Source: Klebsiella variicola (GTDB lineage Bacteria > Pseudomonadota > Gammaproteobacteria > Enterobacterales > Enterobacteriaceae). Taken from it: a DNA stretch of 64,000 nucleotides. The stretch spans positions 4,960,001 through 5,024,000 of the forward strand of contig NZ_CP010523.2 of NCBI RefSeq assembly GCF_000828055.2, in the 5' to 3' direction. Position numbers and translations under genes: made by a program. Positions 5,968 to 46,081 of this stretch are shown here, one piece after another. Every line of letters begins with the position of its first letter. The first letter of the stretch is position 1. The notes beneath the pieces are model-generated. The model made no database searches. It was not told the DNA's origin and was given only the letters and a program-made list of their open reading frames with translations.

Positions 5968-7176
5968 ATGAAAAAGACATTGGTTCTGACGACGATCGCC
6001 CTGCTGGTTTCTGGCTCAGCCGCGGCAAAAACATGGGTGCTGACGAACGCTGAAGAGGGCATGGATAAAGGAAACTGGCAGATCAGCAGCGATCAGCTGA
6101 AGGTAAAAGACCATGCGTTCAGCATTGAGCAAAAAGTCCTGCACGGCGGTAAGCAGGAAGGCAGCAAAATCCTCACCATTCACAGTAAAGACGGCCTGAC
6201 CATCACTCTCAGCCCAACCCGTGGCATGAACTTACTGCGTATTGAGGGTTTCGGCAGCCGGATGGGCTGGGATTCGCCGGTTAAAGAGGTCGTCAACCCG
6301 GCGTTTATCAACCTGGAAAGCCGCAATGGACTCGGCTGGCTGGAAGGATTCAACGAGATGATGGTCCGCTGCGGCTATGAATGGACCGGCCATCCGGTGA
6401 CCGCGGACGGGCAGATTTATACCCTGCACGGCAAGGCGGGCAACACGCCGGCCTCGCGGGTAGAAGTCGAGGTGGCTGACAGCGCGCCGTATGAAATCCG
6501 CATCCGCGGCCTGGTGAAAGAGAGCACCTTCAAAAAAGCCGATCTGCAGACCCTGACCGAACTGCGCTACGTGCCGGGCAGCAACAGCTTCAGCCTGCAT
6601 GATGTCTTAACCAACCATGCTGACTATCCGCATGATTATCAGATTATCTACCACAGCAACTTCGGCACCCCGATTCTGGAAGAAGGCGCGCGCTTCCTCG
6701 CCCCGATGTCCAGCATCAGCCCGTTCAATGATTACGCGAAGAGCGGGTTAAAAACCTGGCAGACCTATCAGGGACCGACCAAAGATTTTGACGAGATGGT
6801 ATTTAATATTCAGCCGCTGGCCGATGAAAATCACCAGACCCTGGCCGCGGTGGTCAACAAAGCGGGCGATAAAGGGGCCTCCATTCAGTTTGATACCCGT
6901 CAGCTGCCGGTCCTGACGCTATGGAAAAATACCGACACCATCAAACAGGGCTACGTCACCGGTATCGAACCGGGCACCAGCTACGCCTATCCGGTCACCA
7001 TTGAACGCGAACAAAAACGCGTGAAGCAGCTGCAGCCGGGCGCCAGCGCGCAGTTTGATCTGACCTACACCCTGCTGCACGACAGCGCCCAGGTGGCCGC
7101 CGTTGAGCAGAAAATCGCGCAGATTCAGGGCGACAATAAAGTCGCGGAGAACGAGACGCCAATCGCCAAAGAGTAA
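5968..7176 (+). CDS. periplasmic aldose 1-epimerase-like protein (DUF4432 family)
   Basis: A 402-residue protein with a clean Sec signal peptide (MKKTLVLTTIALLVSGSAAA, cleavage after residue 20). The mature region resembles the galactose-mutarotase superfamily proteins annotated as aldose 1-epimerase family/DUF4432, including an SPTRGMNLLRIEG motif near residue 75 and NHEL-like central strands with LTNHADYPHDYQIIYH near residue 215. The likely role is binding or epimerising a sugar in the periplasm; the substrate is unknown. It stands alone behind a REP array, and E. coli has no gene at this position. A REP-like palindrome follows at 7195-7227. Confidence 0.75.
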   Translation: MKKTLVLTTIALLVSGSAAAKTWVLTNAEEGMDKGNWQISSDQLKVKDHAFSIEQKVLHGGKQEGSKILTIHSKDGLTITLSPTRGMNLLRIEGFGSRMGWDSPVKEVVNPAFINLESRNGLGWLEGFNEMMVRCGYEWTGHPVTADGQIYTLHGKAGNTPASRVEVEVADSAPYEIRIRGLVKESTFKKADLQTLTELRYVPGSNSFSLHDVLTNHADYPHDYQIIYHSNFGTPILEEGARFLAPMSSISPFNDYAKSGLKTWQTYQGPTKDFDEMVFNIQPLADENHQTLAAVVNKAGDKGASIQFDTRQLPVLTLWKNTDTIKQGYVTGIEPGTSYAYPVTIEREQKRVKQLQPGASAQFDLTYTLLHDSAQVAAVEQKIAQIQGDNKVAENETPIAKE

Positions 7177-29897: not shown

Positions 29898-31235
29898 ATG
29901 TTAAACAGTATTTTAGTAATACTCTGTCTGATAGCCGTCAGTGCCTTTTTTTCGATATCGGAAATCTCACTGGCCGCCTCACGTAAAATCAAACTGAAAC
30001 TGCTGGCCGATGAAGGCAACGTCAACGCACAGCGCGTGCTGAAGATGCAGGAGAACCCGGGCACCTTCTTTACCGTCGTGCAAATCGGCCTCAATGCCGT
30101 CGCCATTCTTGGCGGTATCGTGGGCGACGCGGCCTTCTCCCCGGCGTTTCATAGCCTGCTCAGCGGGTATATGTCGCCGGAGCTGTCCGAGCAGCTGAGC
30201 TTCATCATCTCTTTTACCCTGGTCACCAGCTTGTTCATCCTGTTTGCTGACCTGACTCCGAAACGCATCGGTATGATTGCGCCCGAAACCGTGGCTCTGC
30301 GCATCATCAACCCGATGCGCTTCTGCCTGTTAGTCTTCCGCCCGCTGGTGTGGTTGTTTAACGGCATGGCCAACATGATCTTCCGCATCTTCAAACTGCC
30401 GATGGTGCGTAAAGACGATATTACTTCCGACGATATCTATGCCGTCGTTGAAGCCGGCGCGCTGGCCGGGGTGCTGCGCAAGCAGGAGCACGAGCTGATT
30501 GAGAACGTGTTCGAGCTGGAGTCCCGTACCGTTCCTTCCTCCATGACCTCGCGCGAAAACGTCATTTGGTTTGATTTACACGAAGACGAGCAGAGCCTGA
30601 AAAATAAAGTGGCCGAACATCCGCACTCGAAATTCCTCGTCTGTAATGAAGATATCGACCACATTATCGGTTACGTCGATTCAAAAGATCTGCTGAACCG
30701 CGTACTGGCCAACCAGAGCCTGGTCCTGACCGGCGGCGTGCAGATCCGCAACACGCTGATCGTGCCGGATACCCTGACCCTGTCAGAAGCGCTGGAAAGC
30801 TTCAAAACCGCCGGCGAAGATTTCGCGGTGATCATGAATGAATACGCGCTGGTGGTCGGGATCATCACCCTCAACGACGTCATGACCACCCTGATGGGCG
30901 ACCTCGTCGGCCAGGGGCTGGAAGAGCAGATTGTCGCCCGCGATGAAAACTCGTGGCTGATCGATGGCGGTACGCCGATTGATGACGTGATGCGTGTGCT
31001 GGATATCGACGAGTTCCCGCAGTCCGGGAATTACGAGACCATCGGCGGCTTTATGATGTTTATGCTGCGTAAAATCCCGAAACGCACCGACGCGGTGAAG
31101 TTCTCCGGGTATAAGTTTGAGGTCGTGGATATCGATAACTACCGGATCGACCAGCTGCTGGTGACCCGTATCGATAACAAGCCAACGGTGCTGGTGCCCA
31201 AGCAGGCCGAAGCGGCGGAAAGCCAGAACGCCTGA
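29898..31235 (+). CDS. paeA: polyamine export protein PaeA (YtfL), DUF21/CBS/CorC_HlyC protein
   Basis: A 445-residue inner-membrane protein matching E. coli YtfL. Order of domains is a DUF21 membrane domain (about residues 1-190, three or four helices), a CBS pair (about 210-330) and a C-terminal CorC_HlyC domain (about 345-430). In E. coli the protein exports cadaverine and putrescine and protects stationary cells. The gene is preserved in order relative to msrA but separated from it by about 5.8 kb of accessory DNA. A strong terminator follows at 31255. Confidence 0.95.
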   Translation: MLNSILVILCLIAVSAFFSISEISLAASRKIKLKLLADEGNVNAQRVLKMQENPGTFFTVVQIGLNAVAILGGIVGDAAFSPAFHSLLSGYMSPELSEQLSFIISFTLVTSLFILFADLTPKRIGMIAPETVALRIINPMRFCLLVFRPLVWLFNGMANMIFRIFKLPMVRKDDITSDDIYAVVEAGALAGVLRKQEHELIENVFELESRTVPSSMTSRENVIWFDLHEDEQSLKNKVAEHPHSKFLVCNEDIDHIIGYVDSKDLLNRVLANQSLVLTGGVQIRNTLIVPDTLTLSEALESFKTAGEDFAVIMNEYALVVGIITLNDVMTTLMGDLVGQGLEEQIVARDENSWLIDGGTPIDDVMRVLDIDEFPQSGNYETIGGFMMFMLRKIPKRTDAVKFSGYKFEVVDIDNYRIDQLLVTRIDNKPTVLVPKQAEAAESQNA

Positions 31236-31254: not shown

Positions 31255-31284
31255 AAGGGCGGATAACCATCCGCCCTTTTTTTA
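31255..31284 (+). terminator. rho-independent terminator after paeA/ytfL
   Basis: A stem AGGGCGGAT/ATCCGCCCT with an AACC loop is followed by seven T residues. It isolates paeA from the accessory operon downstream. Confidence 0.9.
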
Positions 31285-31293
31285 TGTCCCGAA

Positions 31294-31309
31294 TGTGAAG
31301 CGGCTCACG
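31294..31309. promoter_or_regulatory. CRP-like site of the permease/beta-galactosidase operon
   Basis: TGTGAAGCGGCTCACG matches TGTGA-N6-TCACA apart from the last base. It lies about 127-142 bp before the permease start and just upstream of the ara-box-like repeats, the same relative order as CRP and araI sites at araBAD. Confidence 0.6.
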
Positions 31310-31321
31310 CCCCTCTGCCGA

Positions 31322-31359
31322 TAGCAGATTACTCCTGCTCGATAGCGGAACGTTCATGA
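31322..31359. promoter_or_regulatory. two ara-box-like direct repeats, 21-bp spacing
   Basis: TAGCAGATTACTCCTGC (31322-31338) and TAGCGGAACGTTCATGA (31343-31359) are direct repeats whose TAGC cores start 21 bp apart, the spacing of araI1 and araI2. The second site resembles araI2 at its first seven and last three positions (TAGCGGA and TGA). An AraC paralogue is encoded at the end of the operon and is the obvious binder. The -35 box would overlap the second site as at araBAD. Confidence 0.6.
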
Positions 31360-31435
31360 CTCCTCGCCACGCAAAAAGGTAACGTTGCCCGCGTCTACAC
31401 GATCATATTCCTGAATAAAGGAAGCGAGGGTTACC

Positions 31436-32668
31436 ATGATAACGTCAAATAAAAATTACTTTATCAGCTGTCTGTTTTTCCTGTTCTTCTTTATAGGCTG
31501 GGGATGCTGCTACCCCTATTTATCACTGTGGTTAACGGAAACCATCGGCATCAATTATACGGACGTCGGCCTGGTCTATTCCTTTACCGCTATTGTCGCC
31601 GTCTGCGTTCAGCCGTTATTCGGCTTCATCTCCGATAAACTGGTATATCGTAAAAATCTGATGTGGATGCTGGCGATTATAATCACGTTATTCGCCCCTT
31701 ATTGGATCTATGTCTTTGCTCCCCTGTTAAAAATAAATGTGTTCCTCGGCGCGCTGGCTGGCGGCCTTTATATTGGCATGGCCTACGGCGCAGGCTGCGG
31801 GGTTTGCGAAGCCTACATTGATAAAGTCAGCCGCGCCTCCAGTTTCGAATTTGGCCGGGCGCGGATGTTCGGCGGCATCGGCGCCGCGATCGGCACCTTT
31901 GCGGCAGGAAAACTCTACGGCATTGATCAGAATATGATTTTCTGGTTGGCCAGCGGCGCAGGCGTCTGCCTGCTGGTCATTGTCTGGAAAATGCAGATCA
32001 GCGCCCACCCGCAGCAGGGATTGCTGTCTGGCAAAGCCTCGCCGGTTACCCTCCGCGATGCCGTCTCGCTGTTAAAAATTAAAAAATTCTGGTTCTTCGC
32101 CCTCTATGTCATTGGCGTCGGGGCGGTCTATGAAACCTATGACCAGCAGTTCGCTATCTATTACAGCCATTTCTTTGAGAGTAAAGCCCGGGGTGCAGAA
32201 GTCTTCGGTTATTTAACCACGGGTCAGATTTTCCTTGATGCTATCGTGATGTTCTTTGCGCCATGGTTTGTGAATAAAATCGGCCCGAAAAATGCGCTGT
32301 TATACTGCGGGCTGATTATGAGCTTGCGCATTATCGGCTCCGCATGGGCTATTGGCCCGGTATCCATCAGCCTGATTAAACTCCTCCACGGCTTTGAAAG
32401 CTCGGTGCTCCTCGTCGCGGCGCTAAAATATATTACCGCTAACTTTAACCCTCTGCTGTCAGCGACTGTTTACTTAATTGGCTTCCAGTTTTCGAAAAGC
32501 TTTAGCTCTATTTTTCTCTCGACCGGTATCGGCCATATGTACCAGAGCATGGGCTTTACCAGCAGTTATATCGTACTCGGCGGTATCGCTCTGTGCTTCA
32601 CGCTCATTTCTTTTATTACGCTGGATAAAGCGCGTGTCTTCGCTTCACAACCGGTGCCCGCGAATTAA
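31436..32668 (+). CDS. LacY-family oligosaccharide:H+ symporter
   Basis: A 410-residue, 12-helix MFS permease of the LacY/CscB/RafB (OHS) family. LacY catalytic residues have counterparts here: Glu126 is Glu125, Arg144 is Arg143 (FGRARMFG), Arg302 is Arg298, and His322/Glu325 are His318/Glu321 (LLHGFE). LacY Glu269 has no counterpart: the region reads TTGQIFLDAIVMFF, as I remember for sucrose permease CscB, with Asp268 nearby. The substrate is therefore probably a galactoside, but not certainly lactose. It heads a three-gene operon with a GH42 beta-galactosidase and an AraC-type regulator. AGCGAGGGTTACC precedes the ATG. Confidence 0.88.
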   Translation: MITSNKNYFISCLFFLFFFIGWGCCYPYLSLWLTETIGINYTDVGLVYSFTAIVAVCVQPLFGFISDKLVYRKNLMWMLAIIITLFAPYWIYVFAPLLKINVFLGALAGGLYIGMAYGAGCGVCEAYIDKVSRASSFEFGRARMFGGIGAAIGTFAAGKLYGIDQNMIFWLASGAGVCLLVIVWKMQISAHPQQGLLSGKASPVTLRDAVSLLKIKKFWFFALYVIGVGAVYETYDQQFAIYYSHFFESKARGAEVFGYLTTGQIFLDAIVMFFAPWFVNKIGPKNALLYCGLIMSLRIIGSAWAIGPVSISLIKLLHGFESSVLLVAALKYITANFNPLLSATVYLIGFQFSKSFSSIFLSTGIGHMYQSMGFTSSYIVLGGIALCFTLISFITLDKARVFASQPVPAN

Positions 32669-32686
32669 TGTCAGGAGGTAGTGTGT

Positions 32687-34696
32687 ATGTCTCATTTATT
32701 TTATGGCGTGGCGTATTACGATGAATATATGCCGGAAGATCGGCTGGCTAAGGATATCGCCTTAATGCGCGAAACCGGCATTAACGTGGTGCGTATTGCC
32801 GAGTCCACCTGGAGTACGCTGGAGCCTGAAGAGGGCCAGTACAATTTCTACCATATCGACCGGGTGCTGGAGGCGATGCATGAGGCCGGCATTGCGGTCA
32901 TCGTCGGGACGCCGACCTATGCGGTACCGGCCTGGCTGGCGGCGAAACATCCCGATATTCTGGTCACCACCGTCGCGGGGCAGCAAAAATATGGCCCGCG
33001 GCAGATCATGGATATCGTCAATCCGACCTTTCGCCGCTATGCCGAAAAAATTATCCGCACGCTGATGGCCCATGTGCAGCACCATCCGGCGATTATCGGC
33101 TGGCAACTGGATAACGAAACCAAGCATTACGACAATATTGGCCGCTATATGCAGGAGGGCTTCGTGCGCAGCCTGCAGGAGAAATATCCTGACCTCCGGC
33201 AGCTGAATCACGATTTCGGTCTGGATTACTGGAGCAACCGCATTGACCGCTGGCAGGATTTTCCGCCGGTGGAAAACACCATCAACGCCAGCCTCGCCTG
33301 CGCCTTCTCCCGCTATCAGCGTCAGCAGGTCACCGAGTATCTGGCCTGGCAGGCGGCCATCGTTCGGGAATACGCCCAGCCGCACCAGTTCGTCACCCAC
33401 AACTTCGATTTCGAATGGCGCGGTTACTCTTACGGCGTGCAGCCGCGGGTCGACCATTTTGCGGCGGCGCAGGCGCTGGATATCGCCGGCGTCGATATCT
33501 ATCACCCGAGCCAGGCGCACCTGACCGGGCGGGAAATCGCCTTTGGCGGCGCCATCACCCGCTCGCTTAAGCCGGGTCAGAACTACTTCGTACTGGAAAC
33601 CCAGGCTCAGGGCTTCGCCCAGTGGACCCCCTTCCCGGGCCAGCTACGCCTGCAGGCATTCAGCCATATCGCCTCCGGCGCCGCCATGGTCTCCTACTGG
33701 CACTGGCATTCGATTCATAACGCCTTCGAAACCTACTGGAAGGGGCTGCTCAGCCACGACTTCTCGCGCAACCCAACCTGGCAGGAAGCCACCACCATCG
33801 GCGCCGATTTCGCCCGCCTGTCGCCGCAGCTGGCGGAGCTGAAGGCCGAAAATGACGTCGCGTTGCTAATAAGCAATGAGGCGATGGACGCCCTCAATCA
33901 CTTCCGTCCCGGCGATGCCGAGGGCAACATTTATAACGATATCTTCCGCCGCTTCCACGATGCGCTGTATGACCACAATATCAGCCTCGACATCATCCAC
34001 GATGTGAACGAGGAAACCTCGCGCTACCGGGTACTGCTCGTTCCTGGTCTGTACGCCGCCGATGATGGCCTGCTAACACGGATTAACGACTATATCGCCC
34101 GGGGCGGCAGAGCGCTGATCGGCTTTAAATCAGGCTTTAGCGATGAAAATGTCAAGGTGCGCAACAGCGCGCAGCCGGGGATTTTGCGCCAGAGCTGCGG
34201 CGTCAGCTACAGCCAGTTCACCCTGCCGGAAGGGACGACGGTAAGCTCATGCAGCGCAGAGATTGATTGCCGCAATGATAATCAGGCTGAGCTGTGGATG
34301 GAATTGCTGACGCCCGATGGCGGAACCCGCACACTGCTGCGCTATCAGCATCCGGCATGGGGCGAATATGCCGCCGCAACGGCGACGGATTACGGTCAGG
34401 GACGCGCCCTGTACGTTGGCTTCCTGCCGCAGAAGCGCCTGATTAGCCAGCTGTTTGATGTCCTGACGGCGGACCTCACGCTGAACTCGCGAACTTCCGC
34501 CTATCGCTATCCGTTAGTGGTTAAAAAGATGCGTAACCGTGCCGGAAATACTATCCACTTCCTGTTCAATTACTCCGGCGAGGCGCTGGATGTTGTCAGC
34601 GAGACCGCGGGTACCGCGCTGCTGAGCGGGGAGGCTGTAGACGTCGGCCAGCCGTTGCGCCTCAGGGCCTGGGAATTTACTATCATCGAAAGCTAA
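32687..34696 (+). CDS. GH42 beta-galactosidase
   Basis: A 669-residue cytoplasmic glycoside hydrolase family 42 enzyme. The catalytic TIM barrel has the acid/base Glu144 (WQLDNET) and the nucleophile Glu304 (YFVLETQAQG); then come the trimerisation domain (LLISNEAMDAL near residue 400) and a C-terminal beta domain. It has no signal peptide. I prefer the ATG at 32687, seven bases after AGGAGGT, over the GTG at 32681, which is too close. With the LacY-type permease 18 bp upstream, the pair would import and split a beta-galactoside. E. coli has no such gene here. The fit to lactose versus plant galacto-oligosaccharides is open. Confidence 0.93.
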   Translation: MSHLFYGVAYYDEYMPEDRLAKDIALMRETGINVVRIAESTWSTLEPEEGQYNFYHIDRVLEAMHEAGIAVIVGTPTYAVPAWLAAKHPDILVTTVAGQQKYGPRQIMDIVNPTFRRYAEKIIRTLMAHVQHHPAIIGWQLDNETKHYDNIGRYMQEGFVRSLQEKYPDLRQLNHDFGLDYWSNRIDRWQDFPPVENTINASLACAFSRYQRQQVTEYLAWQAAIVREYAQPHQFVTHNFDFEWRGYSYGVQPRVDHFAAAQALDIAGVDIYHPSQAHLTGREIAFGGAITRSLKPGQNYFVLETQAQGFAQWTPFPGQLRLQAFSHIASGAAMVSYWHWHSIHNAFETYWKGLLSHDFSRNPTWQEATTIGADFARLSPQLAELKAENDVALLISNEAMDALNHFRPGDAEGNIYNDIFRRFHDALYDHNISLDIIHDVNEETSRYRVLLVPGLYAADDGLLTRINDYIARGGRALIGFKSGFSDENVKVRNSAQPGILRQSCGVSYSQFTLPEGTTVSSCSAEIDCRNDNQAELWMELLTPDGGTRTLLRYQHPAWGEYAAATATDYGQGRALYVGFLPQKRLISQLFDVLTADLTLNSRTSAYRYPLVVKKMRNRAGNTIHFLFNYSGEALDVVSETAGTALLSGEAVDVGQPLRLRAWEFTIIES

Positions 34697-34726
34697 CGAC
34701 GCGGCGGCGCTCAGGTGGGAGAGAGA

Positions 34727-35599
34727 ATGGAACTGGATATCAATGAGCTACTCAATTTCTCGCCATTGATGAAGACCTTTACCTTCAATGCCTGGGTCGT
34801 CGCAGGCTTCACGCCGATTACCCGCGGCTCCACGCTGGACTATTACATTAATCGCCCGCAGGGGATGAAAGGTTACATCATTAATCTGACCCTGCGCGGC
34901 CAGGCGCGGGCGAAAGCGGGCGATGGCTTCCTGCTGTGCCGGGAAAACGATCTGTTGCTGTTTCCTCCCGGCGTGCCCCATCATTACGGCAGGGACGAAC
35001 ACAGCGAGTACTGGGACCATCTGTGGATCTACTTTATCCCCCGCCCCTACTGGATAGACTGGCTAAAGTGGGACCAAACCACCCACGGTATCGGCAAAAC
35101 AACCATTAACGATCCCGACCAGCTCCAGCAGCTGCGCGATCTGTTCTACGAAGTGATACGCCACCACTCTGCGTCCGTACCGCTGTCAGAAGCGCTGGCA
35201 ATGAACGCGCTGGAGAGATTAATTCTCCGCTGTTTTCAGCAGCAGCCCATTAGCAATCGCCATGCCCACGACCCACGGATTAACGCCATCTGCGACTATC
35301 TTAACGCCCATATTGCGCAGGAGGTAAAAATCGAGACCCTGGCGGCGATGGTGTTTATCTCCCCTTCACGTCTGGCGCACCTTTTCAAAAATGAACTGGG
35401 GCAAACGGTCTATGCGTGGCGGGAAACACAGCGCATCAACCGCGCCAGGTGGCTTATTCAGAGCACCTCGCTCCCACTAAACAAAATTGCTTTATCGGTG
35501 GGTTACAGCGATCCGGTCTATTTCACCCGCCTTTTTCGTAAACATAACGGCATCCCACCGGGCGAATATCGGAAACGCTATGCGGAAATGAAGGGCTAA
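34727..35599 (+). CDS. AraC-like transcriptional activator, AraC paralogue
   Basis: A 290-residue protein that aligns along its whole length with E. coli AraC, not only in the DNA-binding part. The N-terminal cupin has GMKGYIINLTLRGQ and LLLFPPGVPHHYGR, both close to AraC; the C-terminal double helix-turn-helix contains MVFISPSRLAHLFKNELGQT and VGYSDPVYFTRLFRKHNG. I start at the ATG at 34727 behind GGGAGAG; a GTG at 34715 is possible. It lies 30 bp after the beta-galactosidase gene, so it is co-transcribed. It presumably recognises the ara-box-like repeats at 31322-31359 and forms a positive loop. The inducer is probably not arabinose. Confidence 0.88.
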   Translation: MELDINELLNFSPLMKTFTFNAWVVAGFTPITRGSTLDYYINRPQGMKGYIINLTLRGQARAKAGDGFLLCRENDLLLFPPGVPHHYGRDEHSEYWDHLWIYFIPRPYWIDWLKWDQTTHGIGKTTINDPDQLQQLRDLFYEVIRHHSASVPLSEALAMNALERLILRCFQQQPISNRHAHDPRINAICDYLNAHIAQEVKIETLAAMVFISPSRLAHLFKNELGQTVYAWRETQRINRARWLIQSTSLPLNKIALSVGYSDPVYFTRLFRKHNGIPPGEYRKRYAEMKG

Positions 35600-35605
35600 A
35601 AACAT

Positions 35606-35634
35606 CAACGGCTCCCATCGGGAGCCGTCTTTTA
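35606..35634. terminator. bidirectional terminator between the AraC-like gene and ytfK
   Basis: A 9-bp stem ACGGCTCCC/GGGAGCCGT with an ATC loop is followed by CTTTT on the plus strand and by TGATGTTTTT on the minus strand. It serves both convergent genes. Confidence 0.85.
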
Positions 35635-44680: not shown

Positions 44681-46081
44681 TTTCGCCAGACGTTTTTTGC
44701 CGGCAAACAGCCAGCCCGCGCCCAGCAGAACAAACCACAGCGGGGTAACCATCAGCGCTTCACGGGTATCATCTTCCAGGGTCAACAGCACCAGTACGAA
44801 GACGAAGAAGGCCATGCACACCCAGCACATGAATTTGCCCAGCGGCATCTTGTATTTGGACTTCTCATGCAGCTGCGGGCGCTTTTTACGGTAGACCAGA
44901 TAAGAGCAGAGGATAATCGTCCAGACGAACATAAACAGGATCGCCGACACCGTGGTGATCATGGTGAACGCGGCAATCACGCTCGGGTTGACCATCAGCA
45001 TGACCACACCGCCCAGCAGGCACATGCAGGAGAAGGTTAAACCCTTCGCCGGCACCGCACGCTTCGACAGCTTGGCGAACATCTTCGGCGCCTGACCATC
45101 CTGCGCCAGACCGAACAACATACGGCTGGTAGAGAACACGCCGCTGTTGGCCGAGGAGGCTGCGGAAGTCAGCACCACAAAGTTGATCAGGCTCGCCGCC
45201 GCCGGCAGGCCGACCAGCACGAACAGCTCAACGAACGGGCTCTTGCTCGGCACCACGGAGCTCCACGGCGTCACCGACATAATCACAATCAGCGCGAAGA
45301 CGTAGAACATAATGATACGCAGCGGGATGGAGTTAATCGCCCGTGGCAGGGATTTCTCCGGGTCTTTGGTTTCGGCGGCGGTGGTCCCCACCAGCTCAAT
45401 CCCCACGAAGGCGAACACCGCAATCTGGAAGCCGGCAAAGAAGCCGCTCAGCCCTTTCGGGAACCAGCCGCCGTCATTCCACAGATGGGCGAAAGAGGCT
45501 TCGACGCCGGTCGGCGATTTGAAATGCATCATGACCATCACCAGGCCGACGACGATTAGCGCCACAATGGCGACGATTTTGATCATCGCGAACCAGAACT
45601 CCATTTCGCCAAACATTTTGACGGTGGCCAGGTTCAGGCCCAGCAGCAGCAGGATCACCGCCAGCGAGGCGACCCAGTCGGAGAGTCCGGGAAACCAGAA
45701 CTGCGCGTAGGCGGTGATCGCCACTACGTCCGCCATTCCGGTGACGACCCAACAGAACCAATAGGTCCAGCCGGTAAAGTAACCCGCCCACGGCCCCAGC
45801 AGATCGGCCGCAAAATCGCTGAAGGATTTATATTCGAGGTTCGACAGCAGTAATTCGCCCATGGCTCGCATAACGAAAAACAGCATAAAACCGATAATCA
45901 TATAAACAAAAATAATAGATGGCCCGGCAAGGCTGATAGTTTTGCCAGAACCCATAAATAACCCAGTGCCGATCGCCCCGCCAATCGCAATCAGCTGAAT
46001 ATGTCGGTTTGTGAGATTTCGCCGTAGCGATTGTTCAGTCGGCTCCTGCTCAATAGCAGCGACTTTAACCTGATCTACCAT
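44678..46081 (-). CDS. cycA: D-serine/D-alanine/glycine:H+ symporter CycA
   Basis: A 467-residue amino-acid permease of the APC family with 12 helices. The first helix region HIQLIAIGGAIGTGLFMGSG (about residues 27-46) holds the substrate-binding GTGLF loop. It matches E. coli CycA (470). It imports glycine, D-serine, D-alanine and D-cycloserine. In E. coli the mRNA leader is a target of the small RNA GcvB; the 305-bp gap upstream (46082-46386) would hold promoter and leader here. ATG at 46081 follows ACAACAGGAAGAAATCAC. Confidence 0.95.
   Translation of the reverse strand: MVDQVKVAAIEQEPTEQSLRRNLTNRHIQLIAIGGAIGTGLFMGSGKTISLAGPSIIFVYMIIGFMLFFVMRAMGELLLSNLEYKSFSDFAADLLGPWAGYFTGWTYWFCWVVTGMADVVAITAYAQFWFPGLSDWVASLAVILLLLGLNLATVKMFGEMEFWFAMIKIVAIVALIVVGLVMVMMHFKSPTGVEASFAHLWNDGGWFPKGLSGFFAGFQIAVFAFVGIELVGTTAAETKDPEKSLPRAINSIPLRIIMFYVFALIVIMSVTPWSSVVPSKSPFVELFVLVGLPAAASLINFVVLTSAASSANSGVFSTSRMLFGLAQDGQAPKMFAKLSKRAVPAKGLTFSCMCLLGGVVMLMVNPSVIAAFTMITTVSAILFMFVWTIILCSYLVYRKKRPQLHEKSKYKMPLGKFMCWVCMAFFVFVLVLLTLEDDTREALMVTPLWFVLLGAGWLFAGKKRLAK

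Follow-up and report, generated by a model that had tools for sequence, protein, structure and literature searches.

The araBAD operon of Escherichia coli has the closest described regulatory layout to that of the locus considered here. As compared from passages of PMC11434276 and PMC4760080, its promoter carries two 17-bp half-sites, I1 and I2, set 21 bp apart, with a CRP site before I1 and a -10 box at an offset of 58 from it; in PMC11434276, I2 spans -51 to -35 and the CRP site spans -104 to -83. The araC gene is divergent from this operon. Among glycosidases, BlArap42B of Bifidobacterium animalis subsp. lactis (structure 5xb7) is described in passages of PMC8106489 as an alpha-L-arabinopyranosidase whose Trp358 replaces a His and occupies the position of the galactose C6-OH group. 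The bacterium belongs to another phylum than Klebsiella. We know of no LacY permease or AraC partner beside the BlArap42B gene, although no search aimed at this was made. The third described relative is LacY of E. coli.

The stretch of DNA analysed, called the window below, comprises 64,000 nucleotides of the 5.52-Mb single-contig genome of Klebsiella variicola (NZ_CP010523.2, positions 4,960,001 to 5,024,000). In it, an araBAD-like promoter precedes three co-directional genes separated by gaps of 18 and 30 bp. Taken together, these elements would form a self-contained alpha-L-arabinopyranoside utilisation operon activated by its own AraC paralogue, AraC2, and by CRP, a reading that appears rather probable. 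The three genes are as follows.

31436 to 32668, plus strand: LacY-family sugar:H+ symporter of 410 amino acids (PF01306, NF007077, matches to LacY in PDB, residue table)
32687 to 34696, plus strand: GH42 glycosidase, predicted alpha-L-arabinopyranosidase, 669 amino acids from the ATG, with GTG 32681 as an alternative start
34727 to 35599, plus strand: AraC paralogue AraC2, 290 amino acids from the ATG, with GTG 34715 as an alternative start

An earlier, sequence-only reading of the same DNA had proposed a lactose-type operon wired like araBAD, with a CRP-like site, two repeats beginning TAGC at 31322 and 31343, a permease, a GH42 enzyme and an AraC-type protein. All of these elements were found where it had put them. 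The promoter elements are listed below.

31294 to 31309, plus strand: CRP-like site TGTGAAGCGGCTCACG, matching 9 of 10 positions of what we take to be the CRP consensus, 12 bp before I1
31322 to 31338, plus strand: araI1-like half-site TAGCAGATTACTCCTGC, a pattern match, identical to E. coli araI1 at 10 of 17 positions
31343 to 31359, plus strand: araI2-like half-site TAGCGGAACGTTCATGA, 21 bp from I1 and overlapping the -35 hexamer, identical to E. coli araI2 at 13 of 17 positions
31356 to 31361, plus strand: predicted -35 hexamer ATGACT, at the same offset from I2 as CTGACG of E. coli araBAD
31380 to 31385, plus strand: predicted -10 hexamer TAACGT, at an offset of 58 from I1 as is TACTGT of E. 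coli araBAD, and a local peak of conservation

The CRP-like site, the two 17-bp half-sites and the -10-like box thus depart by at most 1 bp from the E. coli araBAD layout: the gap between CRP and I1 is 12 bp here and 13 bp there, while the I1-I2 spacing and the -10 offset are the same in both, and the proposed araBAD-like wiring is borne out in these respects. I2 overlaps the -35 region as in E. coli, a feature read here in the window itself. If I2 is counted as -51 to -35, the transcription start would fall at about 31394, with the CRP site centred at about -92.5. Of 45-bp stretches drawn at random from the window, 7 in 5000 contained a CRP-like site of at least 9/10 and 50 in 5000 one of at least 8/10.

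The likeness of these sites to those of ara promoters was measured in two ways. The 39-mer running from I1 through I2 shares 24 of its 39 positions with E. coli araI1-araI2, which makes it joint best in the window with a minus-strand place at 45879. A matrix of canonical araBAD promoters was built from 13 of the 14 taken (L110 was dropped, having no tandem); 23 more canonical-AraC loci supplied no promoter because there was no araB start in reach. With this matrix the 31322 site ranked second of 127,924 window positions. The first-ranking match, at 6162-6200, falls within the open reading frame 5968-7176 and was taken as chance. Since this match outscores 31322, likeness to ara sites alone is not decisive.

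Comparison with relatives carries more weight. The GH42 search, in which 80 of 320 relatives were kept, gave 22 loci with an AraC2-type gene directly downstream of GH42: L007-L027 have a LacY-type gene upstream and L028 does not. In the remaining 58 loci there is no AraC2-type gene directly downstream, and any AraC matches are of 24-39%, mostly to the helix-turn-helix part only. The order lacY-gh42-araC2 is therefore found in 21 loci besides the window. All 22 such operons have araC2 in third place and a second [TC]AGC exactly 21 bp downstream of I1; ahead of I1 they carry a CRP-like match of 8-10/10 (gap of 12 bp in 12 operons, 13 bp in 10). Loss of the repeats among relatives carrying the operon had been named beforehand as an outcome that would speak against the proposal, and the repeats are kept throughout. 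The same CRP-I1-21 bp-I2 arrangement is present in L094, L096 and L139; L095 and L097 are apparently repeats of L012 and L011. Record L139 (CP125156.1), of 5.37 Mb, is listed as a plasmid in PLSDB and looks like a chromosome.

In a set thinned to 14 promoters, conservation is highest in the first halves of both boxes. Since an I1 pattern modelled on the window anchored the alignment, part of the height of I1 is built in, which is not the case for I2 or the CRP site. With a matrix built on L018-L027 (the ten remotest relatives, none of them Klebsiella), 31322 came out at the top of the window with 21.2, the next place reaching 12.3. A search of the 5.5-Mb genome with the site pattern gave one exact match, which is the operon, none with one mismatch and eight with two, against one match in all for the reversed pattern used as control. 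It is conservation rather than likeness to ara sites which clearly sets these predicted promoter sites above chance.

The AraC-type product matches the AraC equivalog model NF007860 over its full length (429.6 bits, cut-off 208) and has 41-42% identity with canonical AraC across some 270 residues, so the resemblance along the whole length is confirmed. In an unrooted tree of 60 rows, from which L099-L101 were left out, one branch with 100/100 support splits 28 GH42-linked proteins from 32 canonical AraC proteins. Because of this split, and because both kinds occur in one genome, AraC2 is a paralogue and not an orthologue of canonical AraC, and its public label araC is misleading. Within the genus, canonical AraC was found in 20 of 20 genomes and AraC2 of type 1, the type of the window protein, in 10 of them (92-100%), with up to four AraC/AraC2 matches per genome. 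Family-wide, 5 of 198 genomes, the window's included, had an AraC2 match of at least 50% identity when up to 12 candidates were scored per genome. Loci found through AraC2 itself numbered 14 (L088-L097 and L099-L102, some repeating known loci; 5 genus matches stand outside this count), and in all of them GH42 adjoins AraC2 or is separated from it by a single symporter gene. In Klebsiella sp. BIGb0407 a second AraC, 74% identical to that of E. coli, lies directly behind araC2 (L013:8040-9780); together with a canonical AraC (82%), this strain has three AraC proteins.

AraC2 is the likely regulator of the operon, as the sequence-only reading had supposed. It may nevertheless be asked whether canonical AraC is the main activator, or whether both proteins act on both promoters, with AraC2 partly redundant and the operon belonging to the arabinose regulon. 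This is unlikely, though it survives best among the alternatives. The sites of the two promoters are alike, and with the AraC2-site matrix canonical araI1-I2 comes out first both in the organism's own ara locus (16.5) and in that of E. coli (19.8), which makes cross-talk between the two regulators plausible. The first recognition helix is nearly unchanged (SPSRLSHLF against SPSRLAHLF), and canonical AraC is present throughout the genus genomes. On the other hand, AraC2 directly follows gh42 in 22/22 operons and keeps to its own side of the tree. Its second recognition helix differs (DQLYF in AraC, DPVYF in the window), as does the second half of each site from its araI counterpart, which suggests a separate specificity. 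L023 and L025-L027 keep DQLYF and also have TCAT in I1, resembling CCAT of araI1; as these loci are close kin, the pairing is suggestive only.

We take the arabinose contacts of AraC to be P8, F15, T24, R38, Y82, H93 and W95, a set for which the open-licence literature gave no source. The last six are identical in 31/31 aligned rows, 28 of them AraC2; P8 occurs in all 22 type 1 rows, the window's among them, and in 3 type 3 rows, and is missing in 2 type 2 rows. Of the 14 family loci offered to this alignment 13 failed its filter, and only L102 entered. AraC2 would be expected to bind L-arabinose through the conserved pocket and to activate the operon. Sensing of a beta-galactoside, as first proposed, is not supported by this pocket, nor by the enzyme and permease residues described below, and L-arabinose or an arabinopyranoside is the likely signal. 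An intact alpha-L-arabinopyranoside, or a transglycosylation product comparable to allolactose for LacI, would take the place of free L-arabinose in a further alternative, which is slightly less likely still than a leading role of canonical AraC. A separate regulator is most sensible if its ligand differs from that of AraC, and the window protein does differ at AraC positions 11 and 34; the presumed sugar-contact residues themselves are unchanged, however. Furthermore, a passage of PMC11434276 describes the arabinose pocket of AraC as covered by the N-terminal arm, which also weighs against this alternative.

The enzyme is annotated publicly as a beta-galactosidase, the permease as an oligosaccharide transporter and the regulator as AraC. 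The GH42 protein matches PF02449 with 268 bits. Against solved structures, phmmer gave 670 bits for 5xb7, the closest solved relative, and at most 197 for all other solved GH42 enzymes. Trp351 in the window is the counterpart of BlArap42B Trp358, and Trp occupies this column in 86/86 aligned proteins (the window and 85 others). In printed alignments, the Thermus A4 enzyme and another beta-galactosidase have His at this place. The same genome encodes one further GH42 protein (4224124-4225248) with His in the Trp351 column, which serves as a natural internal control. It lies in the region 4219500-4231500 (L140) in a gan-like cluster near a LacI-like open reading frame, in place of an AraC gene; the cluster name and the LacI likeness were judged by eye. 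The window enzyme is thus probably an alpha-L-arabinopyranosidase and not a beta-galactosidase. A related GH42 protein (56%) was observed in Brenneria roseae (L038:6001-7992). The neighbours of GH42 genes outside Enterobacterales (L030, L037 and L046; 10 proteins) included no arabinose genes clear enough to help.

The permease is a full-length homologue of E. coli LacY and belongs to its family (PF01306, 458 bits). The LacY residues E126, R144, R302, K319, H322 and E325, presumably with those for H+ coupling among them, are kept in 22/22 permeases. In contrast, the presumed sugar contacts are replaced in all 22: W151 by A, E269 by I and N272 by D, as well as A122 by C and M23 by W. The simplest reading is that of an H+ symporter with a rebuilt sugar site, and an alpha-L-arabinopyranoside importer is predicted.

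The lactose-type label and the beta-galactosidase assignment of the sequence-only reading are not supported by this evidence. D-galactose and L-arabinose have the same ring configuration, which together with the family names LacY and GH42 and the public label would favour a lactose or beta-galactoside operon whose AraC paralogue senses a beta-galactoside or galactose; this is improbable given Trp351 in place of His, the loss of the presumed galactoside contacts in 22/22 permeases and the retention of the presumed arabinose pocket in 31/31 rows.

Two sister designs were found in the genus. In L088-L090 the order is GH42 (47-48%), symporter, AraC2 (54-55%), the symporter being of the GPH family in L088, the one scanned. 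The tandem TAGCAGATT...[TC]AGCAGC at 21 bp is present in 3/3 of these loci. Three further GH42-symporter-AraC operons have promoters that the AraC2-site matrix likewise finds (26.3, 27.6 and 26.3). In L091-L093 and L028 (L092 and L028 are apparently one contig) the order is GH42 (61%), AraC2 (50%) and an MFS transporter, scanned in L091. AraC2 of this type 2 starts with MCFTF and has no N-terminal arm (L091:5692-6549, L093:5718-6575, L028:8058-8915); it may be an unswitched activator. In the type 2 promoter, counting by eye gave possible half-sites some 22 bp apart. From these two designs it follows that the association of AraC2 with arabinopyranosidase-type GH42 outlives a change of transporter.

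The proposed sequence of events in the alpha-L-arabinopyranoside operon would be as follows. The permease would import an alpha-L-arabinopyranoside of plant origin, possibly a disaccharide like vicianose; this sugar is a guess, and the open-licence literature gave no useful match on it. GH42 would release L-arabinose, which could enter the AraBAD pathway. AraC2 would bind the released L-arabinose or the arabinopyranosyl unit and occupy I1 and I2 beside the -35 hexamer, and CRP would join it in activation, adding glucose control. As araC2 lies within the operon that AraC2 is thought to activate, positive feedback would result. The sequence-only reading had expected the same feedback from the gene order.

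Several observations weigh against this interpretation. The contact and coupling roles given above to the AraC and LacY residues are our assumption. The canonical ara matrix taken by itself is weak here, with one chance match scoring above 31322. The sites of the relatives were found by a pattern modelled on the window, and these relatives are kin rather than independent cases. The genome contains a canonical AraC which could bind the same sites. The type 2 relatives L091-L093 have no 21-bp tandem in their promoter, and the Enterobacterales GH42 relative L038 has neither AraC2 nor the permease within its 14 kb. Finally, according to a passage of PMC10673005, there are GH42 enzymes with activity on beta-galactosides as well as on alpha-L-arabinopyranosides, so some galactosidase activity of the window enzyme is conceivable.

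The sequence-only reading had also assumed the light-switch geometry of AraC. This part of the proposal stands for the arrangement of CRP, I1, I2 and promoter; no convincing third half-site for a loop was seen. A scan of eight loci from -700 to +400 revealed three recurring extra half-sites, all within coding DNA. One, in ytfL at about -643, is missing from most loci with another upstream gene. The other two lie in the early lacY codons and at lacY codon 71. Under 1000 synonymous recodings, the early-lacY site was at or below 66 in 7/22 loci and the codon-71 site in 2/22. Excess synonymous conservation was found for lacY codons 1-6, where the translation start may explain it, and not for codon 71, whose half-site is explained by the protein. 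In the window, the early-lacY half-site (31446-31462, minus strand) is a weak AraC2-like one and stands at 209 of 1000 recodings, outside the group of 7. Because the extra half-sites are coding-only and the two tested in lacY are mostly unremarkable against recodings, araBAD-like repression by looping is not claimed; a putative araO2-like third half-site, and hence a repression loop, is neither supported nor excluded.

The operon is flanked by a ytfL-like gene upstream, ending at 31235, and by a DUF1107-YtfJ-CysQ stretch on the other side, with labels taken from a homologous record. Two hairpins read from the sequence border it.

31259 to 31286, plus strand: hairpin and T-run 3' of the ytfL-like gene, gggcggataaccatccgccctttttttt
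35609 to 35633, plus strand: hairpin and T-run, probable operon terminator

The first hairpin is predicted to isolate the operon promoter from the ytfL-like gene. Copies of the operon in two Klebsiella pneumoniae records are 97% identical to it, and no near match was found among 20,395 E. coli records.

The promoter layout, AraC, GH42 and LacY are all of known kinds. No description of the operon combination, of the paralogue group or of the arabinopyranoside reading was met among the matches listed in the open-licence literature. The wider picture, to which about even chances may be given, is that of a distinct Enterobacterales sub-family, parallel to AraC itself, which has accompanied GH42 alpha-L-arabinopyranosidases in three or more operon designs, with LacY-type, GPH-symporter or MFS partners. 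It would combine the araBAD layout with shifted site specificity, positive autoregulation and cross-talk with canonical AraC, so that a cell may hold two to four AraC circuits on one sugar. AraC paralogues that share the pocket and the layout of the promoter, but whose gene sits elsewhere, whose second-half DNA contacts have changed and for which a clear loop site is missing, represent a natural experiment in the evolution of activator DNA specificity and feedback wiring. The public annotation is corrected at the same time, since the current labels hide a probable route of plant-arabinopyranoside utilisation in Klebsiella and its relatives.

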